NCBI GenBank assembly: GCA_000619965.1
Contig: JHVD01000002.1
Location: forward strand, 186,001 to 250,000
Direction of reading: 5' to 3'
Length of the DNA stretch: 64,000 nt
From: Propionibacteriaceae bacterium P6A17
Lineage (GTDB): Bacteria > Actinomycetota > Actinomycetes > Propionibacteriales > Propionibacteriaceae
Positions 19,501-44,472 of the stretch are shown piece after piece. Position 1 is the stretch's first letter; every line of letters starts with the position of its first letter. The notes beneath the pieces were generated by a model. It did no database searches and was not told the DNA's origin. It saw nothing but the letters and a program-made list of their open reading frames with translations. The position numbers were made by a program, and so were the translations under genes.

Positions 19501-22500
19501 TCAGTTTCCGGTGCGCGGCATGCCGGGCGGGTTCACCGGGTGGCCGGGACGGTGCCCGTCGATCGGCTGCTTGCCCTCGGGCAGGGCCCCGATCCGGTAG
19601 ATCGCCTTCGAGCTGGACTCGAGGGTGATCGTGCCCTTCCCGGCCTCGAACTCCACCCGACGAAGCACCTTGCCCTTGTCGTCGAGCAGGTACACGGGCG
19701 AGCCGGTGACCGTGAGGGTCAGAGTGCCGGTGACGGCGATGCCCTTGTTCTGGACGTTCACGATCACGCTGCCATCGGCCTGCTTGGTGCAGGTGATGCT
19801 GATCGAGTCGCCCTTGGCGAAACGGGCAGTCATCGAGCCGCACTCGCCGCCGAGAGTGGTCAGCGGACGCTCGAGGGTGATCGTCACCACGCGTTCGGTC
19901 ACCTTGCCGGAGGCGTCGACGGCGACCAGCGTCACCTTGGTGGGCTGGTCCAACACGAGACCGTCGACGTCCACCTGGACCTGGAGATCCTCGTCCACGT
20001 CATCCGTGACCGTGTAGGCGTCACGGATCTGGGCGAGGACGTCACCGTCCGGGTCGACGCTGAGGGCATCGGGGCCATCGATGACAGGCGCCGCGGCGTC
20101 CACGACGAACGTGACCGCCTCCACCGTGCTGCGACCCGCCTTGTCGACACCGACGGCCTCCAGGACGTGCCTGCCAGCAGCCAGGCCCGTGACCTCGACG
20201 ACCAGCTCGGTCTCGAGCGGGGTGCCGTCGCTGGCGTCGAGCGCATCGAGCTGCGGCTCCCCGTTGAGGAACGGCACCACGTACGCATCCGGGTGCATGC
20301 GCGCCTCCACGACCTTGCCGACGTACTCCTTGCCGTCGACCAGGACCGTGACCGACTTCACGTTCGGGTCAGTCGCCCGGACCGTGATCCGGTGCGAGCC
20401 GTCGAGAACGTCGCCGTCCTTCACACCGGAGATGGCGACGGACGGGGCCGCCTCGTCGAGGACGAACGGGATGGCCCGCTCCACGCCGTTGGCGATCTGG
20501 TCGGAAAGGCTCACCCGCATGGTCTCGCCGCCCTTGCCCGTGACCTTCGTCTCGAACTCGCGACGGTTCTGCGTGGCGCCCGGATCCCAGAGGTTGTCGA
20601 ACTCCTTCACGGTGCTGCCGTTGATCGCGAGCTCGTAGCCGAACTCGTCGTCCCAGACGGCGCCCTCGACGGACACCTCCTGACCGTCGGAGGTCAGGTA
20701 GATGGCGCCATCGGCGTCGATACCCGGCACCGTGACCATCTCATAGCCGGGCAGGTTGCGATCCCAGAAGAAGCGCCACGAGCCCATGATCGCGCGGTTG
20801 CCATTGGCGTCGACGACCTCGAAGCCGACGTGGTTGATGCCGCCGTTGAGCGTGATCGGCACGTCGAAGTGGAGCTTGTCGTCGATGGCGACTTCCTTGC
20901 CCGCGACGATGAACTTGCCGGGGCGCGCGTTGAAGGTGCCCTTGAGGCGCAACTGCGCCGTCGTGCCCGAGATCGTGAGGTTCTCGAACGACGGGTCGAC
21001 GATCGTCGCGAACTCACCGAAGCGAGCGTCCTCGTCGACCGGCTGCAGACGCGGATCGTCGTACGTGATCCGAAGCTGCGAGGCGGCAGCGGTACGACCG
21101 GCGATCGGCCACGCCTGCGAGGTGTAGTTGAGCCTGCCCGAGTGGTCGACCGCGGCGAGCGTCACCGTGATCTGATCGGGACCCGGCGTCGTCTCGTAGG
21201 TGAAGTTGCCCTGCGCGTCGGGCATCAGGATGTTCGAGGCGGCGTCGAAGCCGATCAGCGACCAATCGGACGTCTTCGACACGTTGTCGGTGAGCTTGCC
21301 CTTGATCGTGATCTTGCCCTGCGCGTCGGGCACCAGCTCGCCGCTCGCGTTGAGCGGTAGGTCGGTGAACTCGAACACCGGCGCCACGTCGTCAAGGCCG
21401 AGCCAGTTCGTCGTGCGGCCCACCTCGGAGCCGTCGGCCGCGAAGCCGATGATCTCGAAGTCGTTGCGGCCCGCAGTGACGGGGACGTCGATGCTGCCGA
21501 AGCCGTCCTTCATGGTGACCTCAGCCCCGTTGACCGTGGCGTGGGTCACGTTCGGGCTGCCCGTGACGGTCAGGTGCACCTTGCCGTCCTTCACCAGCTG
21601 GTCGTTGTCGGTGACGTCGTACTTCCACGAGTTGACCCAGCGGTCGTAGCGCCACTCGTGGAAGAGCTGCACGGCGTCGCGGCCCTGGAAATCGGTGACG
21701 CGGGTCACGTTGCCGGCGTTGTCCATCACCTGCACGTCGAGGTACTCGCCGGGACCGACCTGATCGGCCGGCACCGTGATGGTGACGGTGCCCGTCGCCT
21801 CGTCGATCACCCGGTCATGCTGGACCTGGGTGGTGCCGCGGACCGTGGTGAGCGCCCGCCAGAAGATGCCCGACGCGTCGTCCGACGTCTTCAGGGTGTA
21901 GGTGAGCGAGCCGTCGGCGTTCTGCACGCGCGTCAGCGACTCGACGGTGGGGGCCACGCGGTCGAGGCCGAACTCCAAGTCGGTGTGCTGCCACGCGAAC
22001 TCGGCGCCGAGGCGAGCCTTGATCCGCAGCGTGTACTTGCCGTCGGGTGCGTCGACGAACGTATCCGACGACGGATCGTACACTCGCCCGTCCCACTTCT
22101 GGGCGGACGCGACGTGTGCCGCGCTGCCCAGCGTGCCCAGGATGTCGCCGATGGTGAGGCGCTGCACGTCGCGGTCGGAGCCGAGCGACTTCAGCACCTT
22201 GCCGTCGCTCAGGATCTCGTACTCGAGGTCGCTCGCCGAACGCAGCATCGACACCGACGGGAACACCTCGTCGTAGATGCCGTCGCCGTTGGGGGAGAAC
22301 CACGTGCGCGGCACCGCGCCGACGATCGGGAAGTTGCCGAGCAACGTCGTCGCGGTCTCGTGGTCGGCGCCGATGAGCTGGTCGAGCAGCGGCTCTCCGC
22401 CGACACGCGGGGCGTCGACGATGGGCTCGGCGTTCCAGTCGCCCGCGAATCCGAGGTACGGCAGCGCGAGATCCGGCTGCGCGCCGTCGGCCGACTTGAA

Positions 22501-24642
22501 CGAGGCCCAACCCTGCAGCCAGTGGTCGCCGGAGCCGGGAGTGACGGTGAAGTCCACCGTGGCCTTGCCGCCGGCGGGGACGGTGACCTTGCTCGTCGCG
22601 GACTTGATCGAGTCGATCGTGGAGCACGCCGTGGTGTTGCCGGCCGGGTCCTGCGACTCGGCCACCGAGCACGTACCGCCGACGGTGAACGTCCGGTCGG
22701 TGCCGCCCCGGTTCTCCAGCGTCACGGTGAACTGCTTCGGGCCGCGCACCTCGCGCAGCGCGATGGTCGGGGAGCCGTCCACCGTCGCGAACACGTCGGT
22801 GCTGAGGGCCGACTTCGTCTGGATCAGACCAGCACCCATCTGGCGCGGAGCGTAGGGGACGCCGTCGTGCTCCAGAATCTTCGCCGTGTTGGAGAACGCG
22901 ACGCGCAGCAGCGCATTGCGGTCCTTGGCCGAAAGATCCGGGAAGCGCTCGGCGAACTTCTGCGCGCCCAGCGCGAAGGCGCCGGCGACGTGCGGCGCCG
23001 CCATCGAGGTGCCGGAGTTGTCTGCGTACTCGTCGTCGTTGTTCGTCGAGTACACCGAGCCGCCGATGCCCGCGAGCTGCGGCTTGAAGTCGAGCTCCGG
23101 CGTCGCACCCCACGAGGTGAACGACGACGGCGCCACCGGCTCCGACGTCGGCAGCGCCACGCGGCCGTCGGTGAGGGTGATGGTGGTCTCGCCGGCGGCG
23201 ATCTTCGCCTTCAGCGCGAGCCCGGCCGTGCGATGCAGGAACAGGCCCGGGATCGTGATGTGGTCGAGGCCGCCCATGCCTGCGAACGTGTCGCCACCGG
23301 CGGCGCTGTTGAACACGACGACGCCCACCGCGCCCTTGGCGATGGCGTTGTTGAACTTGTCCGCGAACGAGATCTCGCCGCGCTCCACCAGGACGTAGTT
23401 GCCCTTCGCCGTGGCGGGGATCTGATCCGGCTTGCCGAGGCCGCCGTCGACGATCACGTGCGCGGCATCGTCGGCCACCCCGGTCTGGAGCTGGTAGGCG
23501 ATGTCCTCGGAGGTGCCACCCTGGGCGATCTTGGCCACTGTCGCGATCGACGCCGTGTTGTTCACGGACGCGACGGCGAGCGCCTCCTTCGTCGAGGCGG
23601 GGCTGCCCATGGTGCCGTCGTCGAGCATGTCGAAGACGTCGTCGAGGGTGCCGCCCGGGGAGCCGTTGTGGCCCTCGTTGCCGGCCGCGACGATGACCTG
23701 CACGCCAGCCGCCTGCGCGTTGGCGATGGCCCGGCCCTCACCGACCGACGACTGGTTCGTGCCATTGGGGGAACCCAGCGACATGTTGATGATGTTCGCG
23801 CCGCGCTCCACCGACTCCTCGATGGCGGCGATGATGTCGTCCTCGTAGGCGCCGCGGATGGCGGGATCGTTGGAGAAGACCTTCATCGCCAGCAACTGCG
23901 CGTTGGGGGCGATGCCGCGAATGCGGCCGTTCGCGATGACGTCGGCGTCCGCCCCGCCGTTGGCGGCGACGATGCCGGCCACGTGCATGCCGTGCTCGCT
24001 GCCAGTGTCGTAGACGTCGGCGTTGTCGTCGGCGAAGTTCCAGCCGTAGGGGACCTTCTCGGTGAAGCCCTCGGCGGCGGGGAGCCGGCCCTGCACGTCG
24101 TCATCCAGGCGCATGTCCTGATGCTTGACGTCGATGCCGGAGTCGATGACGGACACGACGAGCCCCCGCCCGTCGACGCCGAGATCCTCACGCGCGGCTA
24201 CCGACTGCGTGAGCTCACCGGCGGTCTGCATCGACTGGTAGAAGACCTTGAGGGGCTTCACCGAGGCGACGTCCGGGTCTGCGGCGAGGCTCGCGATCTG
24301 GCTCTGCGGCAGCGTCGCGGAGAAGCCGCGCACGAGCATGCCGAACTTGCGATCGACCTTGAATCCGTCCTTGTCCTTCCAGCGGCCGAGCACCCGGTCG
24401 ACGGCAGCGAGCCCCTCCGACTCGTTGCCCTTGCCCGTGGGCTGTTCCTTGAGGAGCACCATCACGCGGCGCGGCTCGTCGACGGGGCCCTGGAAGGCGT
24501 CGTCGACGGTGGGCCGGCCCGCGCGAGGCGCCTCGGCGAGCGTGTCGGGGTTGGGCAGCGGCGAGGCGTACGCCCCCGTGACCGCGAGCCCGCCCGTCAA
24601 CGCCAGCGTCATCGCCATCAGCGAGGCGGTAGTTTTCTTCAT
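19501..24642 (-). CDS. Giant secreted subtilisin-like (S8) serine protease with Ig-like modules and LPxTG-like C-terminus
   Basis: The 1713-residue protein has a signal peptide (about 1-27), an I9-type propeptide (about 55-135) and a subtilase domain with Asp167, His217 (H-G-M-H-V-A-G) and Ser546 (G-T-S-M-A-A-P-H). A PA-type insert lies at about 375-470. The next thousand residues are beta-rich repeats of the Fn3/Ig-like kind seen in lactocepin and C5a-peptidase relatives. A short Pro/Gly spacer ends in P-P-G-M-P-R-T-G-N, the last residues. An LPxTG-type sorting signal would need a hydrophobic helix and basic tail after this motif, and both are missing. It probably degrades proteins outside the cell. 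GGAGAGGG precedes the ATG. Confidence 0.92.
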   Translation of the reverse strand: MKKTTASLMAMTLALTGGLAVTGAYASPLPNPDTLAEAPRAGRPTVDDAFQGPVDEPRRVMVLLKEQPTGKGNESEGLAAVDRVLGRWKDKDGFKVDRKFGMLVRGFSATLPQSQIASLAADPDVASVKPLKVFYQSMQTAGELTQSVAAREDLGVDGRGLVVSVIDSGIDVKHQDMRLDDDVQGRLPAAEGFTEKVPYGWNFADDNADVYDTGSEHGMHVAGIVAANGGADADVIANGRIRGIAPNAQLLAMKVFSNDPAIRGAYEDDIIAAIEESVERGANIINMSLGSPNGTNQSSVGEGRAIANAQAAGVQVIVAAGNEGHNGSPGGTLDDVFDMLDDGTMGSPASTKEALAVASVNNTASIATVAKIAQGGTSEDIAYQLQTGVADDAAHVIVDGGLGKPDQIPATAKGNYVLVERGEISFADKFNNAIAKGAVGVVVFNSAAGGDTFAGMGGLDHITIPGLFLHRTAGLALKAKIAAGETTITLTDGRVALPTSEPVAPSSFTSWGATPELDFKPQLAGIGGSVYSTNNDDEYADNSGTSMAAPHVAGAFALGAQKFAERFPDLSAKDRNALLRVAFSNTAKILEHDGVPYAPRQMGAGLIQTKSALSTDVFATVDGSPTIALREVRGPKQFTVTLENRGGTDRTFTVGGTCSVAESQDPAGNTTACSTIDSIKSATSKVTVPAGGKATVDFTVTPGSGDHWLQGWASFKSADGAQPDLALPYLGFAGDWNAEPIVDAPRVGGEPLLDQLIGADHETATTLLGNFPIVGAVPRTWFSPNGDGIYDEVFPSVSMLRSASDLEYEILSDGKVLKSLGSDRDVQRLTIGDILGTLGSAAHVASAQKWDGRVYDPSSDTFVDAPDGKYTLRIKARLGAEFAWQHTDLEFGLDRVAPTVESLTRVQNADGSLTYTLKTSDDASGIFWRALTTVRGTTQVQHDRVIDEATGTVTITVPADQVGPGEYLDVQVMDNAGNVTRVTDFQGRDAVQLFHEWRYDRWVNSWKYDVTDNDQLVKDGKVHLTVTGSPNVTHATVNGAEVTMKDGFGSIDVPVTAGRNDFEIIGFAADGSEVGRTTNWLGLDDVAPVFEFTDLPLNASGELVPDAQGKITIKGKLTDNVSKTSDWSLIGFDAASNILMPDAQGNFTYETTPGPDQITVTLAAVDHSGRLNYTSQAWPIAGRTAAASQLRITYDDPRLQPVDEDARFGEFATIVDPSFENLTISGTTAQLRLKGTFNARPGKFIVAGKEVAIDDKLHFDVPITLNGGINHVGFEVVDANGNRAIMGSWRFFWDRNLPGYEMVTVPGIDADGAIYLTSDGQEVSVEGAVWDDEFGYELAINGSTVKEFDNLWDPGATQNRREFETKVTGKGGETMRVSLSDQIANGVERAIPFVLDEAAPSVAISGVKDGDVLDGSHRITVRATDPNVKSVTVLVDGKEYVGKVVEARMHPDAYVVPFLNGEPQLDALDASDGTPLETELVVEVTGLAAGRHVLEAVGVDKAGRSTVEAVTFVVDAAAPVIDGPDALSVDPDGDVLAQIRDAYTVTDDVDEDLQVQVDVDGLVLDQPTKVTLVAVDASGKVTERVVTITLERPLTTLGGECGSMTARFAKGDSISITCTKQADGSVIVNVQNKGIAVTGTLTLTVTGSPVYLLDDKGKVLRRVEFEAGKGTITLESSSKAIYRIGALPEGKQPIDGHRPGHPVNPPGMPRTGN

Positions 24643-28307: not shown

Positions 28308-29429
28308 TCAGGCTTCGGCCTTCAGCCCTTCGCGCCACTTCATCGGCTTGCCAGTGCGCAGCAGGCCGTTGTCGTAGATCTTCGCGGAAACCAGGATGAT
28401 GACTGCGGTGGTCACCGCGAGCAGCAGCGCCGAGACGACGGGCTCCCACGCCGCGGACTGGCCCAGGAAGACCCGCATCGGCACGGCCACCGGGGCCGAG
28501 AACGGCACGTAGCTCATGATCGTCAGCGCCAGCGGGTTGTTGCTGAGGAAGATGATGAGCATGTAGGGGATCATGATGATCCACATGATCGGCTGCTGCA
28601 CGTTGGCGAGATCCTCGGAGCGCGAGACCAGCGCAGCCGCGGCTGCGTACAGGGAGGCCACCATCACGAAGCCGATCAGGAACAGGATGATGAACCAGAT
28701 GACGGGCCACGTGAGGTTGCCGACGGGCATCGTCGTCCCGTTGTAGGCGAGGCCGCCCGCGACCACCAGCACGATCGCGAGGATCTGCACGAGCGCCGCA
28801 GCCGAGTTGCCGACGATCTTCCCGGTCAGCAGCGCCCTCGACGAGACCGTCGCCAGCAGGATCTCGACGATGCGCGTCTGCTTCTCCTCCACGACGGAGT
28901 TGGCGATGCTCATGCCGAACGTGATCGCCGACATCATCCACAGCAGGCCAAAGCCCATGCCCATGAGATTGGCGATCCACGACGCCTGCGCGCTCGGCGC
29001 CAGCAGCTCCACCTCCGGCACGATGGCCAAGGCGTTGACGAGGCCCTGCGGCTCCGTGTCGAGGCCCAGCACCTTCACCCCCGCCGGCGACGACGGGTCG
29101 ACGACCAGCGCCGCATCCGCGGTCTCCGACTCGACGGCGGCCCGGGCCGCGGCGTCGTCGGGCACCTCCATCCACTCGACGCCCTCCAGCGACGAGTGGG
29201 CACTGGCCACCTCGGAGGTGGCGGCGACCCTGGTGGTGCCCCCGTCGAACAGGTCGCCCAGACGCGGGACCAGCACGATGGCGGCCAGGATCACGACCAG
29301 CGTGATGGCCGTCGAGATGATGAACGACTTCGACAGGAATCGCTGGACGATCTCGCGCTTGGCGACGATGCCGACGGTGTCCCAAAAGGACTGGCGCGGC
29401 GTGAGCGGGGGGGTCTGGGTGGTGGTCAC
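28308..29429 (-). CDS. ABC-2 type exporter permease (NatB-like)
   Basis: The 373-residue membrane protein has one helix near residues 36-54, a large extracytoplasmic loop to about 165, and five or six C-terminal helices. This is the arrangement of NatB/YhaP-type ABC-2 permeases. It overlaps the ATPase gene upstream by four bases (ATGA), so the two are made together. Substrate is unknown; such pairs export sodium, antibiotics or peptides, and the adjacent two-component system suggests envelope-stress control. Confidence 0.88.
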   Translation of the reverse strand: MTTTQTPPLTPRQSFWDTVGIVAKREIVQRFLSKSFIISTAITLVVILAAIVLVPRLGDLFDGGTTRVAATSEVASAHSSLEGVEWMEVPDDAAARAAVESETADAALVVDPSSPAGVKVLGLDTEPQGLVNALAIVPEVELLAPSAQASWIANLMGMGFGLLWMMSAITFGMSIANSVVEEKQTRIVEILLATVSSRALLTGKIVGNSAAALVQILAIVLVVAGGLAYNGTTMPVGNLTWPVIWFIILFLIGFVMVASLYAAAAALVSRSEDLANVQQPIMWIIMIPYMLIIFLSNNPLALTIMSYVPFSAPVAVPMRVFLGQSAAWEPVVSALLLAVTTAVIILVSAKIYDNGLLRTGKPMKWREGLKAEA

Positions 29430-30304
29430 TGTGCCAACTCCTTGTAGATCTCGTGCAGGTTGCGGCGGACGCGGCCGAACTGCTCGACCCGCCCGCGCTG
29501 GGTGGCGGCAGTGAGCACGCGCTGGGCGTCGTCCTCGCTCGCCTGGAACTTCACGTAGCCGCCGTCGAACTCGACGACGTGCACGCCCGCATCACGCACC
29601 CAGCCGGTGTCGGCCGTCGTCACCAGCTCCCAGTCGTTGCCCAGCTCGGCGGCGAGCAGTTCAGCGCGCGTCCCGTTGGCGCGGATCGTGCCGCCGGCGA
29701 TGATGACCAGCTCGTCGCAGAGGCGCTCGACGACGTCGAGCTGGTGCGACGAGAACAGCACCGGCGCGCCGGTGGCGGCGGTGTCGCGCAGGACCTCCAC
29801 CGTCGTGTCCACCGCCGACGGATCCAAGCCGGAGAACGGCTCGTCGAGGATGAGCGCCACCGGCTCGTGGATCAGGGCCGCAGCGATCTGGGCCCGCTGC
29901 TGGTTGCCGAGCGACAGCGACTCGAGGGTGTCCGTCGGGTCGCCATTGAGCTGGAGCCGCTCCAGCAGCTCGAGGCCGCGGCGACGCGACGCCTCCGCCG
30001 AATGGCCGTGGAGCTGCCCCAAGTAGACGAGCTGGTCGATCACCTTCATCTTCGGGTAGAGGCCGCGCTCCTCCGGCATGTAGCCGATGTTGGCGCGATA
30101 CTGCGCGGACATCGGCTGGCCGTCGACGAGCACCTCGCCCTGCTGCGCCGCCAGGACGCCCAGGATGATGCGCATCGTCGTCGTCTTGCCGGCGCCGTTG
30201 CCGCCGACGAAGCCCGTCATCAGGCCGGGCTTGATGTCGAAGGACACGTCGTCGAGGACGTGCTTGTCACCGAAGAATCGGTGCAGATTTCTCACGCTGA
30301 TCAT
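29426..30304 (-). CDS. ABC exporter ATP-binding protein (NatA-like)
   Basis: The 292-residue ATPase has Walker A G-G-N-G-A-G-K-T-T near residue 34 and the signature region L-S-L-G-N-Q-Q-R (Asn-Gln in place of Gly-Gly). Walker B is L-I-L-D-E-P-F-S-G-L-D-P and the H-loop is F-S-S-H-Q. A C-terminal extension of about 80 residues is typical of drug/NatA subfamilies (DUF4162-like). The ATG at 30304 is supported by homology and by a -10 seven bases upstream. Confidence 0.9.
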   Translation of the reverse strand: MISVRNLHRFFGDKHVLDDVSFDIKPGLMTGFVGGNGAGKTTTMRIILGVLAAQQGEVLVDGQPMSAQYRANIGYMPEERGLYPKMKVIDQLVYLGQLHGHSAEASRRRGLELLERLQLNGDPTDTLESLSLGNQQRAQIAAALIHEPVALILDEPFSGLDPSAVDTTVEVLRDTAATGAPVLFSSHQLDVVERLCDELVIIAGGTIRANGTRAELLAAELGNDWELVTTADTGWVRDAGVHVVEFDGGYVKFQASEDDAQRVLTAATQRGRVEQFGRVRRNLHEIYKELAQ

Positions 30305-41255: not shown

Positions 41256-44200
41256 ATGAAACCCTTGCGCATGCTCACCGCGGGCATCGCCGCGATGGCC
41301 CTCAGCGTCCCAGCGGGCGCACTGGGCGCGCCCGACCCGGCAACGTTGGTCGTCGGGGACCCGCTGGTCTCCAGCCAGTCCAGCCCGTCCAAGATCGACG
41401 TGATGGCGCTCTGGTCACACCCCGACGACGACGCTGCCTTCACCACTCCCTGCGGGGTCTGGGGTGACCTCTATGACATCAAGTGCGGCATCATCATGGT
41501 CACCCGCGGAGAGGGCGGCTCCAACTCCGTCGGCAACGAAGCAGGCCCGGATCTCGGCCTGCGACGCGAGAACGAGGATCGGGCGTCGCACGTCCGCACC
41601 GGCACCGTCGACATCTTCAACATCGACAAGGTGGACTTCTACTACAACACCTCGGCGTCGCTGACCCAGCAAGCCTGGGACGGGGAGGACACATTGCGGC
41701 GCGTCGTGCGCGTGATCCGGGAGACGCGCCCTTCGGTCATGATCGGCTGGCCGCCGAACTTCGACTACGGTCACGGCAACCATCAGTACGCGGGCCGTTT
41801 GGTCTGGGAGGCAGTCGAGGCAGCCGCAGACCCGGAGCGCTTCCCCGAGCAACTGACGGGTGTGGGCGCGGTCGAACCGTGGCAGGTGAAGAAGGTGATC
41901 CAGCAGACGGGCTGGGGATTCAAGTACGGGGGCGAGGGCGCCCGTCAGGCCCCGGACTGCAACGTCGGCTACGTGCCCGACGCCGACAACCCCTTCACGA
42001 TGGTCGGCACCTGGTCCGGCTACGAATCGCCGTACCGGTGGGTGGAGGGCAACACCGCGGGCATCCCCGCGGGCACACCGAAGACCTGGGCGCAGGTCGG
42101 ACGCGAGGGCGGTCGTGCGCATCCCACCCAGGCCCGCGTCATGCAGAAGGACCCCTTCGCGGCGGCGTGCCTGCAGTTCGCCGTGCTCGACTCCTACGTG
42201 CCGATGCAACCAGGCGGTACCGCCGAGGGCGACAAGGACAATGCGTTGTTCTGGGGTGCCGCGGTCGCGGATCCGGGCGGATTCCCGCTCGAGACGCTGT
42301 TTCGCATCACTCCCGACGACTTCTACGTCGCACCGGGCGAAGACTTCCAGGTGAGCGTCGACCTGACTCTCCCGGACGGATCGGTCCCGGCGGGAGCGAT
42401 CTCACTGGATGTCCCGGAGGGATGGTCGACGAGTGAGCCGGTCACCGTCGGCGGCGGCAGGTCGGCCAAGGCAACGTTCACCGTCATCCCGGCGGCGGAC
42501 GCGGCCGACGGCATCGAACGGATCGAGGCCTCCTTCTCGGGCGGTGGCAAGTCCGCGTGGAATGAGACCCGCGTGGGTATCGTGCCCCAAGTCCAGGGCC
42601 TGTTCGCCCGTGGCGGCTCCTCCCAAGAGCTCGACGCGTGGATTGACGCCCATGACGTCCACGTCTACGGCAGGGCTCCGGCGATCGACGACATCGGCGC
42701 GGGTGAATCCAAGACGATCTCCGTCGAGGTGACCAACCGCAGCAGCGAGACCCGCAGCGGCACCGTCGATCTCGCCGTCGACGCGGCCGATGGCCAGGCC
42801 GAGCCCTTCGCATTCGACGCGGCCAGCAAGTCATTCGACGGGCTCGCCCCAGGCGCATCGACGACGGTGGACTTCACCGTCACCCACGCCGATCCCACCT
42901 CAGCCGGCGGGGTGGTGGCCAATCTGGTGGCCACCACCACGGTCGACGAAGAGCGCTCGGCGGAGACCATGCAGCTCTACGTGGTGCCGACGACGGTCAT
43001 CCCCCAGCTTGCCGCCGCGCCCGCGATCGACGGTGCCGCGGACGACGTCTACACCGGTGAGAGGTTGGGCATCGGCCGAAAGTGGGAGGGAGCGGACTGC
43101 GAGCCCGACGGCACCGACTGCGGGGACGGGTCCATCGCCACCGTGGGCTGGCACGAGGATTCGCTCTACGCCCACCTCACCGTGGTGGACGATCGCGCCA
43201 GCGCGGCCGCCACCACCGACCGCTGCTTCGGGCACTGGCTGGTGGACTCCGTCGAGTTCCTCGTGGACCCGCGCGGCAACTCCTCGGACACCTCCACCAC
43301 GTTCAAGCTGGGAATCTTCCCCTTCACGGACGATCCCGACGGTGAGAACGGCAACGGCGTCGACGGCCCGTGCTGGTCGCGCGACGCCGACAACCACCAG
43401 GGCTTCTCGACGGGACCGCTCGCCAATCTCGTGGAGCAGGGGCCGAACGCACCCGGCGTCGAGGTGGCGGTGAGCGCGGCGCGCAACGACGACGGCACCT
43501 TCGACGAAGGCAGGTACACCGTCGAGATCAAGGCCCCGATGTCCAACTTCCCGGCCGCGGTGGGGCCGACGAGCAGCGCACCGACCGGTGATGCGGCCAC
43601 GAACGCAGTGGATCCGCAGTTCATGGGCTTCAACCTCACGCCCTACGATTCGGACAATCAGGACTTCATCGGCGAGACCCGCACCGCTTGGTCGCCGTTC
43701 GGCAGCCAACAGTCCGAGCCGTACCGATGGGGCCATGCGTACCTGGACGGGTACGAACCCCCGTCGGGGAGGGCGACGACCGCGAAGGAGCCGATCATCC
43801 CCGACACGGCGCTGCAGAGTGTGGCTTCTCCGCAGACGGTGTACCAGTCGGCCGCCCGCGGGGTGACCATGGCCGGTGTCCAGCCGTCGGATGGCCTCAC
43901 GATCACGGGGGTGACCATCGACAAGGGCGAGATCGTCGTCTCCTACGATGCCGACGTCGCCGGCACCATCCGGGGCTTCGTGTGGCATGGCGAGACCCGC
44001 TACCGTCCCGTGTGGACCTCGAGCTGCGTGTTGCCGGAGGACTACGTGCTGCCCGGGTTCGACGCCTGCGCGGCGGAGGATGGCAAGGGCGCGCCCTGGG
44101 CCCCGGACATGGGTGGGGCGCTGCTGGCCGACGGTGAAGTCGACGTCCGCGCCGGAGGCGGAGAGTTCCGCTTCCCGGCGAGCGCGAAGGCGCTCGAGAT

Positions 44201-44417
44201 GATGACCGCCGATGCTCAGCTACTGCTGTCTTGGAAGGAGTCGGGCCACGACAACGGCGACGGAGTCGCGGCATGGGCCTACCCGATCGTGGTGGCCGGA
44301 GACGTCGAGCCGCAGCCGGAGCCGACGGTGAACCCGAGCCCGGCACCGTCCGGGCAGTCGACGGCCACGCCTGCTCCCGAACCGGGCCGACCGGGCCTGC
44401 CGCGCACCGGCGCCTGA
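41256..44417 (+). CDS. Secreted PIG-L-type deacetylase with CBM9-like domain and LPxTG-like C-terminus
   Basis: The 1053-residue protein has a signal peptide (about 1-25). Residues about 45-330 form a PIG-L/LmbE fold with the zinc motif S-H-P-D-D-D and a downstream G-H-G-N-H-Q-Y-A-G. Two beta-sandwich segments follow, and then a CBM9-like region (about 585-800) with A-I-D-G-A-A-D-D-V-Y and D-S-V-E-F-L-V-D-P-R-G. The last part is a Pro/Thr/Ser spacer ending L-P-R-T-G-A, with the stop immediately after. It probably deacetylates an amino-sugar glycan outside the cell; the substrate is unknown. CGGAGG lies five bases before the ATG. The missing hydrophobic tail is unusual. Confidence 0.85.
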   Translation: MKPLRMLTAGIAAMALSVPAGALGAPDPATLVVGDPLVSSQSSPSKIDVMALWSHPDDDAAFTTPCGVWGDLYDIKCGIIMVTRGEGGSNSVGNEAGPDLGLRRENEDRASHVRTGTVDIFNIDKVDFYYNTSASLTQQAWDGEDTLRRVVRVIRETRPSVMIGWPPNFDYGHGNHQYAGRLVWEAVEAAADPERFPEQLTGVGAVEPWQVKKVIQQTGWGFKYGGEGARQAPDCNVGYVPDADNPFTMVGTWSGYESPYRWVEGNTAGIPAGTPKTWAQVGREGGRAHPTQARVMQKDPFAAACLQFAVLDSYVPMQPGGTAEGDKDNALFWGAAVADPGGFPLETLFRITPDDFYVAPGEDFQVSVDLTLPDGSVPAGAISLDVPEGWSTSEPVTVGGGRSAKATFTVIPAADAADGIERIEASFSGGGKSAWNETRVGIVPQVQGLFARGGSSQELDAWIDAHDVHVYGRAPAIDDIGAGESKTISVEVTNRSSETRSGTVDLAVDAADGQAEPFAFDAASKSFDGLAPGASTTVDFTVTHADPTSAGGVVANLVATTTVDEERSAETMQLYVVPTTVIPQLAAAPAIDGAADDVYTGERLGIGRKWEGADCEPDGTDCGDGSIATVGWHEDSLYAHLTVVDDRASAAATTDRCFGHWLVDSVEFLVDPRGNSSDTSTTFKLGIFPFTDDPDGENGNGVDGPCWSRDADNHQGFSTGPLANLVEQGPNAPGVEVAVSAARNDDGTFDEGRYTVEIKAPMSNFPAAVGPTSSAPTGDAATNAVDPQFMGFNLTPYDSDNQDFIGETRTAWSPFGSQQSEPYRWGHAYLDGYEPPSGRATTAKEPIIPDTALQSVASPQTVYQSAARGVTMAGVQPSDGLTITGVTIDKGEIVVSYDADVAGTIRGFVWHGETRYRPVWTSSCVLPEDYVLPGFDACAAEDGKGAPWAPDMGGALLADGEVDVRAGGGEFRFPASAKALEMMTADAQLLLSWKESGHDNGDGVAAWAYPIVVAGDVEPQPEPTVNPSPAPSGQSTATPAPEPGRPGLPRTGA

Positions 44418-44432
44418 TTGGGCGACGTCGAT

Positions 44433-44472
44433 GGTGAGGGCCGACACCGCAGGGGGCGGGTCGGCCCTCACC
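44433..44472 (+). terminator. Hairpin terminator after the PIG-L gene
   Basis: GGTGAGGGCCGAC (44433-44445) and GTCGGCCCTCACC (44460-44472) are perfect 13-bp arms with a 14-base loop. No U-tract follows. Confidence 0.75.

Follow-up and report, generated by a model that had tools for sequence, protein, structure and literature searches.

Bare C-terminal LPxTG tags on exported proteins of Propionibacteriaceae: a candidate tailless sortase signal

In the canonical LPXTG system (PF00746), exported surface proteins carry the LPXTG pentapeptide near the C-terminus, after a Pro/Ser/Thr-rich spacer, and the pentapeptide is followed by a hydrophobic membrane-spanning helix and a basic tail. The proteins described here have the same pentapeptide and the same kind of spacer, but lack both the helix and the basic tail and end exactly one residue past the Gly. 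Such a bare tag therefore misses two of the three features that define the canonical signal, but may still be sortase-signal-like in its working, since the tagged proteins have an N-terminal export signal and the genome encodes a sortase with a putative cognate role. Tailed actinobacterial signals of the LAxTG type occupy the equivalent site in 5'-nucleotidase orthologues, but combine an LA motif (LADTG or LARTG) with a membrane tail and occur in genera that do not have the sortase SrtF considered below. The GlyGly-CTERM/rhombosortase system is similar in that one tag is shared by many unrelated exported proteins and served by one processing enzyme family. Tags of that type include a transmembrane segment, whereas the bare LPxTG-x tag does not.

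Engineered sortase tags such as LPETGG and LPXTG-amide peptides have established that a short C-terminal LPXTG suffices in vitro and enters the S. aureus wall (PMC3490390, PMC4723074, PMC9026250); in comparison, the tags considered here occur naturally, on many proteins, and form the encoded C-terminus itself. S. aureus SrtA puts exogenous tailless LPXTG peptides into the wall by a route other than the one its natural substrates take (PMC9026250, PMC4723074), and on this route the effect of bacitracin differs from that seen with natural substrates (PMC9026250). Against a role for bare motifs, however, S. aureus SrtA makes poor use of soluble LPXTG peptides in vivo, and a basic extension brings a 20-fold gain (PMC4723074).

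The “LPXTG-anchored” proteins of C. acnes (DsA1 and a sialidase), together with its class F sortase, very probably represent the same system as the one reported here, although they have been described as ordinary LPXTG proteins and, among the literature found, DsA1 alone is noted as tailless (PMC5527093). DsA1 is reported to have an LPXTG motif with neither a membrane span nor a charged tail, and perhaps to occur at the surface as well as in secreted form (PMC5527093), as would suit a substrate without membrane retention. For the “cell wall anchored” sialidase of C. acnes, the published reverse primer decodes to SLPHTGD (PMC2212713), and a peptide of this sialidase, VVELSDGTLMLNSR, is closely similar to KVVELSDGTVMLNSRR in the sialidase of our genome (L103). 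Very likely, therefore, C. acnes has the same tag, which has been treated there as an ordinary LPXTG signal. Each skin Propionibacterium species has been credited with 12–18 “C-terminal LPXTG” proteins, and missing tails are not mentioned in the passages covered (PMC3848858). Two reports, with reference to Di Girolamo 2019, state that the class F sortase of C. acnes recognises LPXTG (PMC7913060, PMC13257024). In the literature covered, which lay outside the primary class F sortase paper, we found no treatment, as a class of its own, of a tailless tag with one residue after the Gly.

The window analysed here is a 64-kb stretch (64,000 nucleotides) of Propionibacteriaceae bacterium P6A17, whose genome comprises 2.73 Mb in 48 contigs. 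Two reading frames within it, and no others, have such an ending (Table 1). One encodes an exported protein with matches to PIG-L (6.6e-13), CBM9_1 (7.2e-11) and NPCBM_assoc (1.3e-7); it starts with an ATG preceded by a ribosome-binding-like GGAGG, and its N-terminus, MKPLRMLTAGIAAMALSVPAGALGA, is signal-peptide-like. The initial annotation had placed the stop codon of this gene one residue after LPRTG, and this is what is read in frame at 44397-44417 (+), where the protein ends APEPGRPGLPRTGA-stop; the longer C-terminal stretch, VEPQPEPTVNPSPAPSGQSTATPAPEPGRPGLPRTGA-stop, includes RPGLPRTGA. It had also ascribed the same type of ending to a giant protease at 19.5 kb, and indeed the S8 subtilase (Peptidase_S8, 9.7e-42) terminates on the minus strand in VNPPGMPRTGN-stop (19521-19501), the longer stretch being KQPIDGHRPGHPVNPPGMPRTGN-stop. 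The terminator proposed at 44433 fared less well: a strong inverted repeat (GGTGAGGGCCGAC..GTCGGCCCTCACC) is found at 44432-44472, 3' of the PIG-L/CBM9 gene, but it has no T-run and the terminator scan makes no call.

Table 1. Features of the two tagged proteins of the window, and the class E-like sortase frame located elsewhere in the genome.
Feature	Position	Strand	Remark
Exported PIG-L / NPCBM-associated / CBM9 protein, 1053 aa, bare tag	41256..44417	+	Pfam
Pro/Ser/Thr-rich spacer EPQPEPTVNPSPAPSGQSTATPAPEPGRPG, ahead of the PIG-L/CBM9 tag	44307..44396	+	
Bare tag LPRTG-A (candidate sorting signal), PIG-L/CBM9 protein	44397..44414	+	stop codon 44415-44417
S8 subtilase, 1713 aa, PA + fn3_5 + I9 domains, same tag type	19501..24642	-	
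Bare tag MPRTG-N (candidate sorting signal), S8 protease	19504..19521	-	stop codon 19503-19501
P0002 (L111), class E-like sortase ORF of intact length, Cys and Arg replaced (LTLTAEQDLIPTDDLA)	G000:C6:128906-129244		outside the window

Genome-wide counts were obtained by pattern searches. The pattern HTGCCNNNNACNGGNNNNTGA ([L/M]-P-x-T-G-x-TGA) has 16 matches in the whole genome against 1 for the reversed-pattern control. The ending is thus a pattern and not an accident, as had been supposed from the two proteins of the window, and its extent, in this genome as in relatives, goes beyond what was then envisaged. At least 14 of the matches terminate long exported ORFs, all with a Pro/Ser/Thr-rich spacer ahead of the tag; three further matches (L097, L108 and L113) lie in short or broken frames and were dropped as tagged genes. 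When the gap between motif and stop was allowed to vary, all in-frame matches (12/12) had exactly one residue behind TG, and endings with 0 or 2–8 residues behind the Gly were not found in this genome, which rules out a variable tail length here. Relatives show a few +2, +3 and +4 endings (LPKTGNN-stop, LPRTGAGLR-stop and LPATGEA-stop). No tailed LPXTG protein (PF00746) was detected in the genome, and no Pfam or NCBIfam model matched the bare tag itself.

The tagged proteins comprise a GH101 endo-GalNAcase, a phytase-like/choice-of-anchor I protein, PhoX, an ExeM/NucH nuclease, an F5/8-type C protein, a BNR sialidase, a GH10 xylanase, two choice-of-anchor M proteins, two nucleotidases, an SCO2322-like protein and the two proteins of the window. 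Their domains are mutually unrelated. Most have signal-peptide-like N-termini, as judged by eye and not with a dedicated predictor, and PhoX carries a Tat signal (TIGR01409).

C-terminal LPxTG followed by a single residue forms a true class of tag. Among 55 ORF-verified endings from four genomes (our own, G105, G111 and G035), P, T and G are invariant (55/55), L is found in 54/55, and x is K, R, S, A or H in 50/55. The residues ahead of the motif are mostly [R/K]-P-G, and the final position differs from ending to ending (V 19, A 9, R 8, N 6, C 4, and others). The initial annotation had seen no hydrophobic helix or basic tail downstream of the PIG-L/CBM9 gene in any frame, and this extends to the class: of 54 genes tested in the four genomes, none acquires a hydrophobic tail by read-through or by a +/-1 frameshift. 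A hidden tail past the stop codon was therefore rejected; two apparent matches in this test resemble a signal peptide belonging to the gene that follows.

In a survey of 147 genomes of the family, our own genus gave 121 tag matches against 25 for the control (14 genomes) and genus g14, which is probably Cutibacterium, 108 against 22 (9 genomes), while the excess over control is weaker in g20, g29 and g17. Within our own genus the count spans from none (G095) to 19 (G105), and the matches of sister genomes, when read as proteins, are of the same kind. Across 394 genomes of the class, no genome outside Propionibacteriaceae stands clear of the control; the highest count outside the family was 10 against 5 for the control, in an 8.8-Mb genome, and a wider spread in the class was rejected. 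Genome G024, with six matches and no SrtF, was discarded as a true carrier, the loci examined being short or repeated frames that are not genes.

The C-termini of 5'-nucleotidase orthologues, compared across the family by reading, consist of several exchangeable modules. A bare LPxTGx end is present in our own genus, in g14, in g20 and in one g2 genome. Tailed ends, with LARTG, LADTG or LPGTG followed by a hydrophobic helix and a basic end, are found in g23, g5, g3, g22 and g16 (the g16 sequence is cut by a contig end), and modules assigned by eye as LGFP-like repeats in g15 and g10 and as SLH-like in g12. Since orthologues carry other anchor modules at the same place, the bare tag occupies the anchor position. 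The tailed versions were seen only in other genera, without this SrtF, and with other motifs (LADTG, LARTG, LPGTG). As for the PIG-L protein, its nearest orthologue (L019, on a contig of an uncultured Propionibacteriaceae) ends KPGLPDTGY-stop, the spacer having diverged and the tag having been kept. The initial annotation would have been overturned by normal-tailed orthologues indicating truncation in this strain only; what is found instead is a bare-tagged PIG-L orthologue and bare-tagged 5'-nucleotidases in many species of two genera.

Two variants were noticed in passing. In four species of our own genus the 5'-nucleotidase has an undescribed Cys-rich repeat module instead of the tag; this C-terminal module of about 140 aa, seen in L169, L170, L174 and L184 and also in the PIG-L protein of G084 (L196), consists of two Cys-containing repeats (NGRQWKTACEAYSQTERC..W.FNNLTYLP and GRMWRTECDTA.TG..GCRSY..W.FNNIVLF), has no match in Pfam or NCBIfam, and is possibly an undescribed surface-attachment domain. 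The 5'-nucleotidase L186 (G071, g15) ends in a bare GGLAKTGTNA-stop, i.e., a tailless LAxTG followed by three residues.

A Pfam search of the genome for sortases returned two proteins, P0002 (class E-like) and P0003 (class F-like, here SrtF), and a homology search added a paralogue of SrtF on contig C17, which brings SrtF to two copies. The gene of P0003 lies between polA and rpsA. Its best model is the NCBIfam class F family NF033748 (50.6 bits, E 1.6e-13), yet the cut-off of 166 is not reached, and P0003 is best viewed as a divergent, class F-like sortase that is predicted to be membrane-anchored. The arrangement characteristic of class F, a membrane anchor ahead of an extracellular domain, is recognisable, by inspection, from an N-terminal hydrophobic helix. 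His134, Cys206 and Arg224 are invariant in 31/31 homologues and, in a profile of ten homologues, the stretch containing the Cys and the Arg aligns to S. aureus sortase A (E 0.0036); a search with the single sequence matched no solved structure. P0002 (NF033747) has kept the His, but LTLTAEQDLIPTDDLA stands in place of the TLTTC..R of class E enzymes. It is probably inactive because the catalytic Cys and Arg are replaced, and may be a pseudo-sortase.

Homologues of SrtF are present in every sampled genome of our own genus and of g14, and were not found in g5, g7, g8, g9, g12, g18, g19, g22 and g23 at a threshold of E 1e-15. A tag excess of at least 4 is seen in 21/53 genomes with SrtF versus 2/94 without it (Fisher p 3e-9, uncorrected for phylogeny); the two without SrtF include G024, where the loci are the non-gene frames mentioned above. 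SrtF also occurs without an excess of bare tags in g4, g15, g28, g26 and g27. Some of these genera hold tailed substrates, and g27 has 14 PF00746 matches. SrtF thus goes together with the tag without being sufficient for it. In one g14 genome (G083:C1:843610-844258), srtF is apparently split into two frames while the tag-bearing genes persist.

We consider it probable, from comparison of sequences, that C-terminal LPxTG-x is a functional tailless sortase signal, and that SrtF cleaves it between Thr and Gly and joins the protein to the wall. A sorting route using a bare C-terminal motif, one of two possibilities raised at the outset, is favoured by the genome-wide occurrence of the motif, its strict position, its sharing among species and genera, its place in the anchor position and its co-occurrence with a sortase. 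The link between SrtF and the tag is correlative, and covalent anchoring is what we infer. The sequences show that the proteins are exported by their N-terminal signals (Sec, and Tat for one of them), that they have no hydrophobic stop-transfer segment to hold them in the membrane, and that the tag is carried on the Pro/Ser/Thr spacer. SrtF would then recognise [R/K]-P-G-L-P-x-T-G-x and cut between Thr and Gly, the leaving group being the dipeptide Gly-X, and an amino group of peptidoglycan or of its precursor would resolve the acyl-enzyme into a covalently anchored protein. Since the membrane does not retain the substrate, some of it should escape, and mixed wall-bound and secreted pools are to be expected. 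The single obligatory residue may reflect the need for a peptide bond, and not a free carboxylate, after the Gly. We know of no sortase tag that is used with Gly as the free C-terminus; avoidance of such an end would explain the one residue. A point against anchoring is that few LPXTG proteins were detected in a Propionibacterium surface proteome (PMC3848858).

More tentatively, and short of what we would call probable, the sortase might capture proteins that are fully released, and even folded when exported by Tat, by means of their terminal tag, in a lineage that dispenses with membrane retention. If this held, anchoring would be uncoupled from the translocon; mature peptidoglycan might serve as acceptor in place of lipid II, or proteins might be recaptured from the medium. 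Predictors that demand a hydrophobic tail miss surface proteins of the bare-tagged class. This probably holds also for Cutibacterium, the human skin genus, in which such proteins have been used as vaccine antigens and are assumed to be ordinarily wall-anchored. Should a natural sortase act on the bare tag, the textbook requirement for membrane retention would not be universal; what class F sortases do physiologically, called unknown in recent literature, would become testable, and SrtF could be considered as a natural ligase for substrates that have no tail.

Could the tag be a selected signal whose reader is no catalytic sortase? A dead class E-like receptor, or a C-terminal processing protease, might bind it and bring about non-covalent display. 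The genome does keep an intact class E-like sortase ORF that has its His and lacks the catalytic Cys and Arg, bare tags do not provide the membrane retention that a sortase is believed to need, and several genera have SrtF without a tag excess. However, the motif matches the classical sortase pentapeptide exactly, T and G being invariant, and the genera with a verified tag excess carry a sortase with a full catalytic triad, so that we think such a reader unlikely. It is quite improbable that anchoring is the work of a sortase other than SrtF, for example a class E or pilus-type enzyme: beyond the dead class E-like protein, the Pfam and homology searches of our genome turned up SrtF and its paralogue only, and the tailed LAxTG-type substrates sit in genera without SrtF. 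This has to be set against the few tailed substrates of some tag-rich species, which suggest further sortases, and the proposal that the housekeeping enzyme of Propionibacterium is a protein with a sortase E domain (PMC3848858).

The second possibility raised at the outset was a remnant that still serves as a recognition tag. A related reading takes the tags as ordinary signals that have lost their tail, on proteins that are now simply secreted. Tailed signals do exist elsewhere in the family, and the 5'-nucleotidase orthologues of other genera are tailed. But about 14 unrelated genes per genome end at exactly the same residue, the downstream sequence holds no tail relic in any frame, P, T and G do not vary in the 55 endings, and the motif persists where the spacer has diverged, across species and in two genera; decay of this kind is very improbable. 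The preferred reading, a tailless signal used by SrtF, also faces the objection that the matches are due to chance, annotation or assembly, for a few of them, as mentioned, are short or broken frames. The probability of such an artefact is practically negligible, since it is refuted by the count over the control and by the same class being found in independent genomes.

Two of the discarded frames deserve a brief description. L108/L238 (G000:C16, about 29000-30000) is an exported ORF resembling thioester proteins, with two in-frame stops before the tag LPKTGA, and looks like a pseudogene or an assembly error. L113 (G000:C8:75772) is a short frame ending WPRPGLPSTGY-stop that adjoins an IS3-like transposase, and looks like a tagged gene disrupted by insertion.
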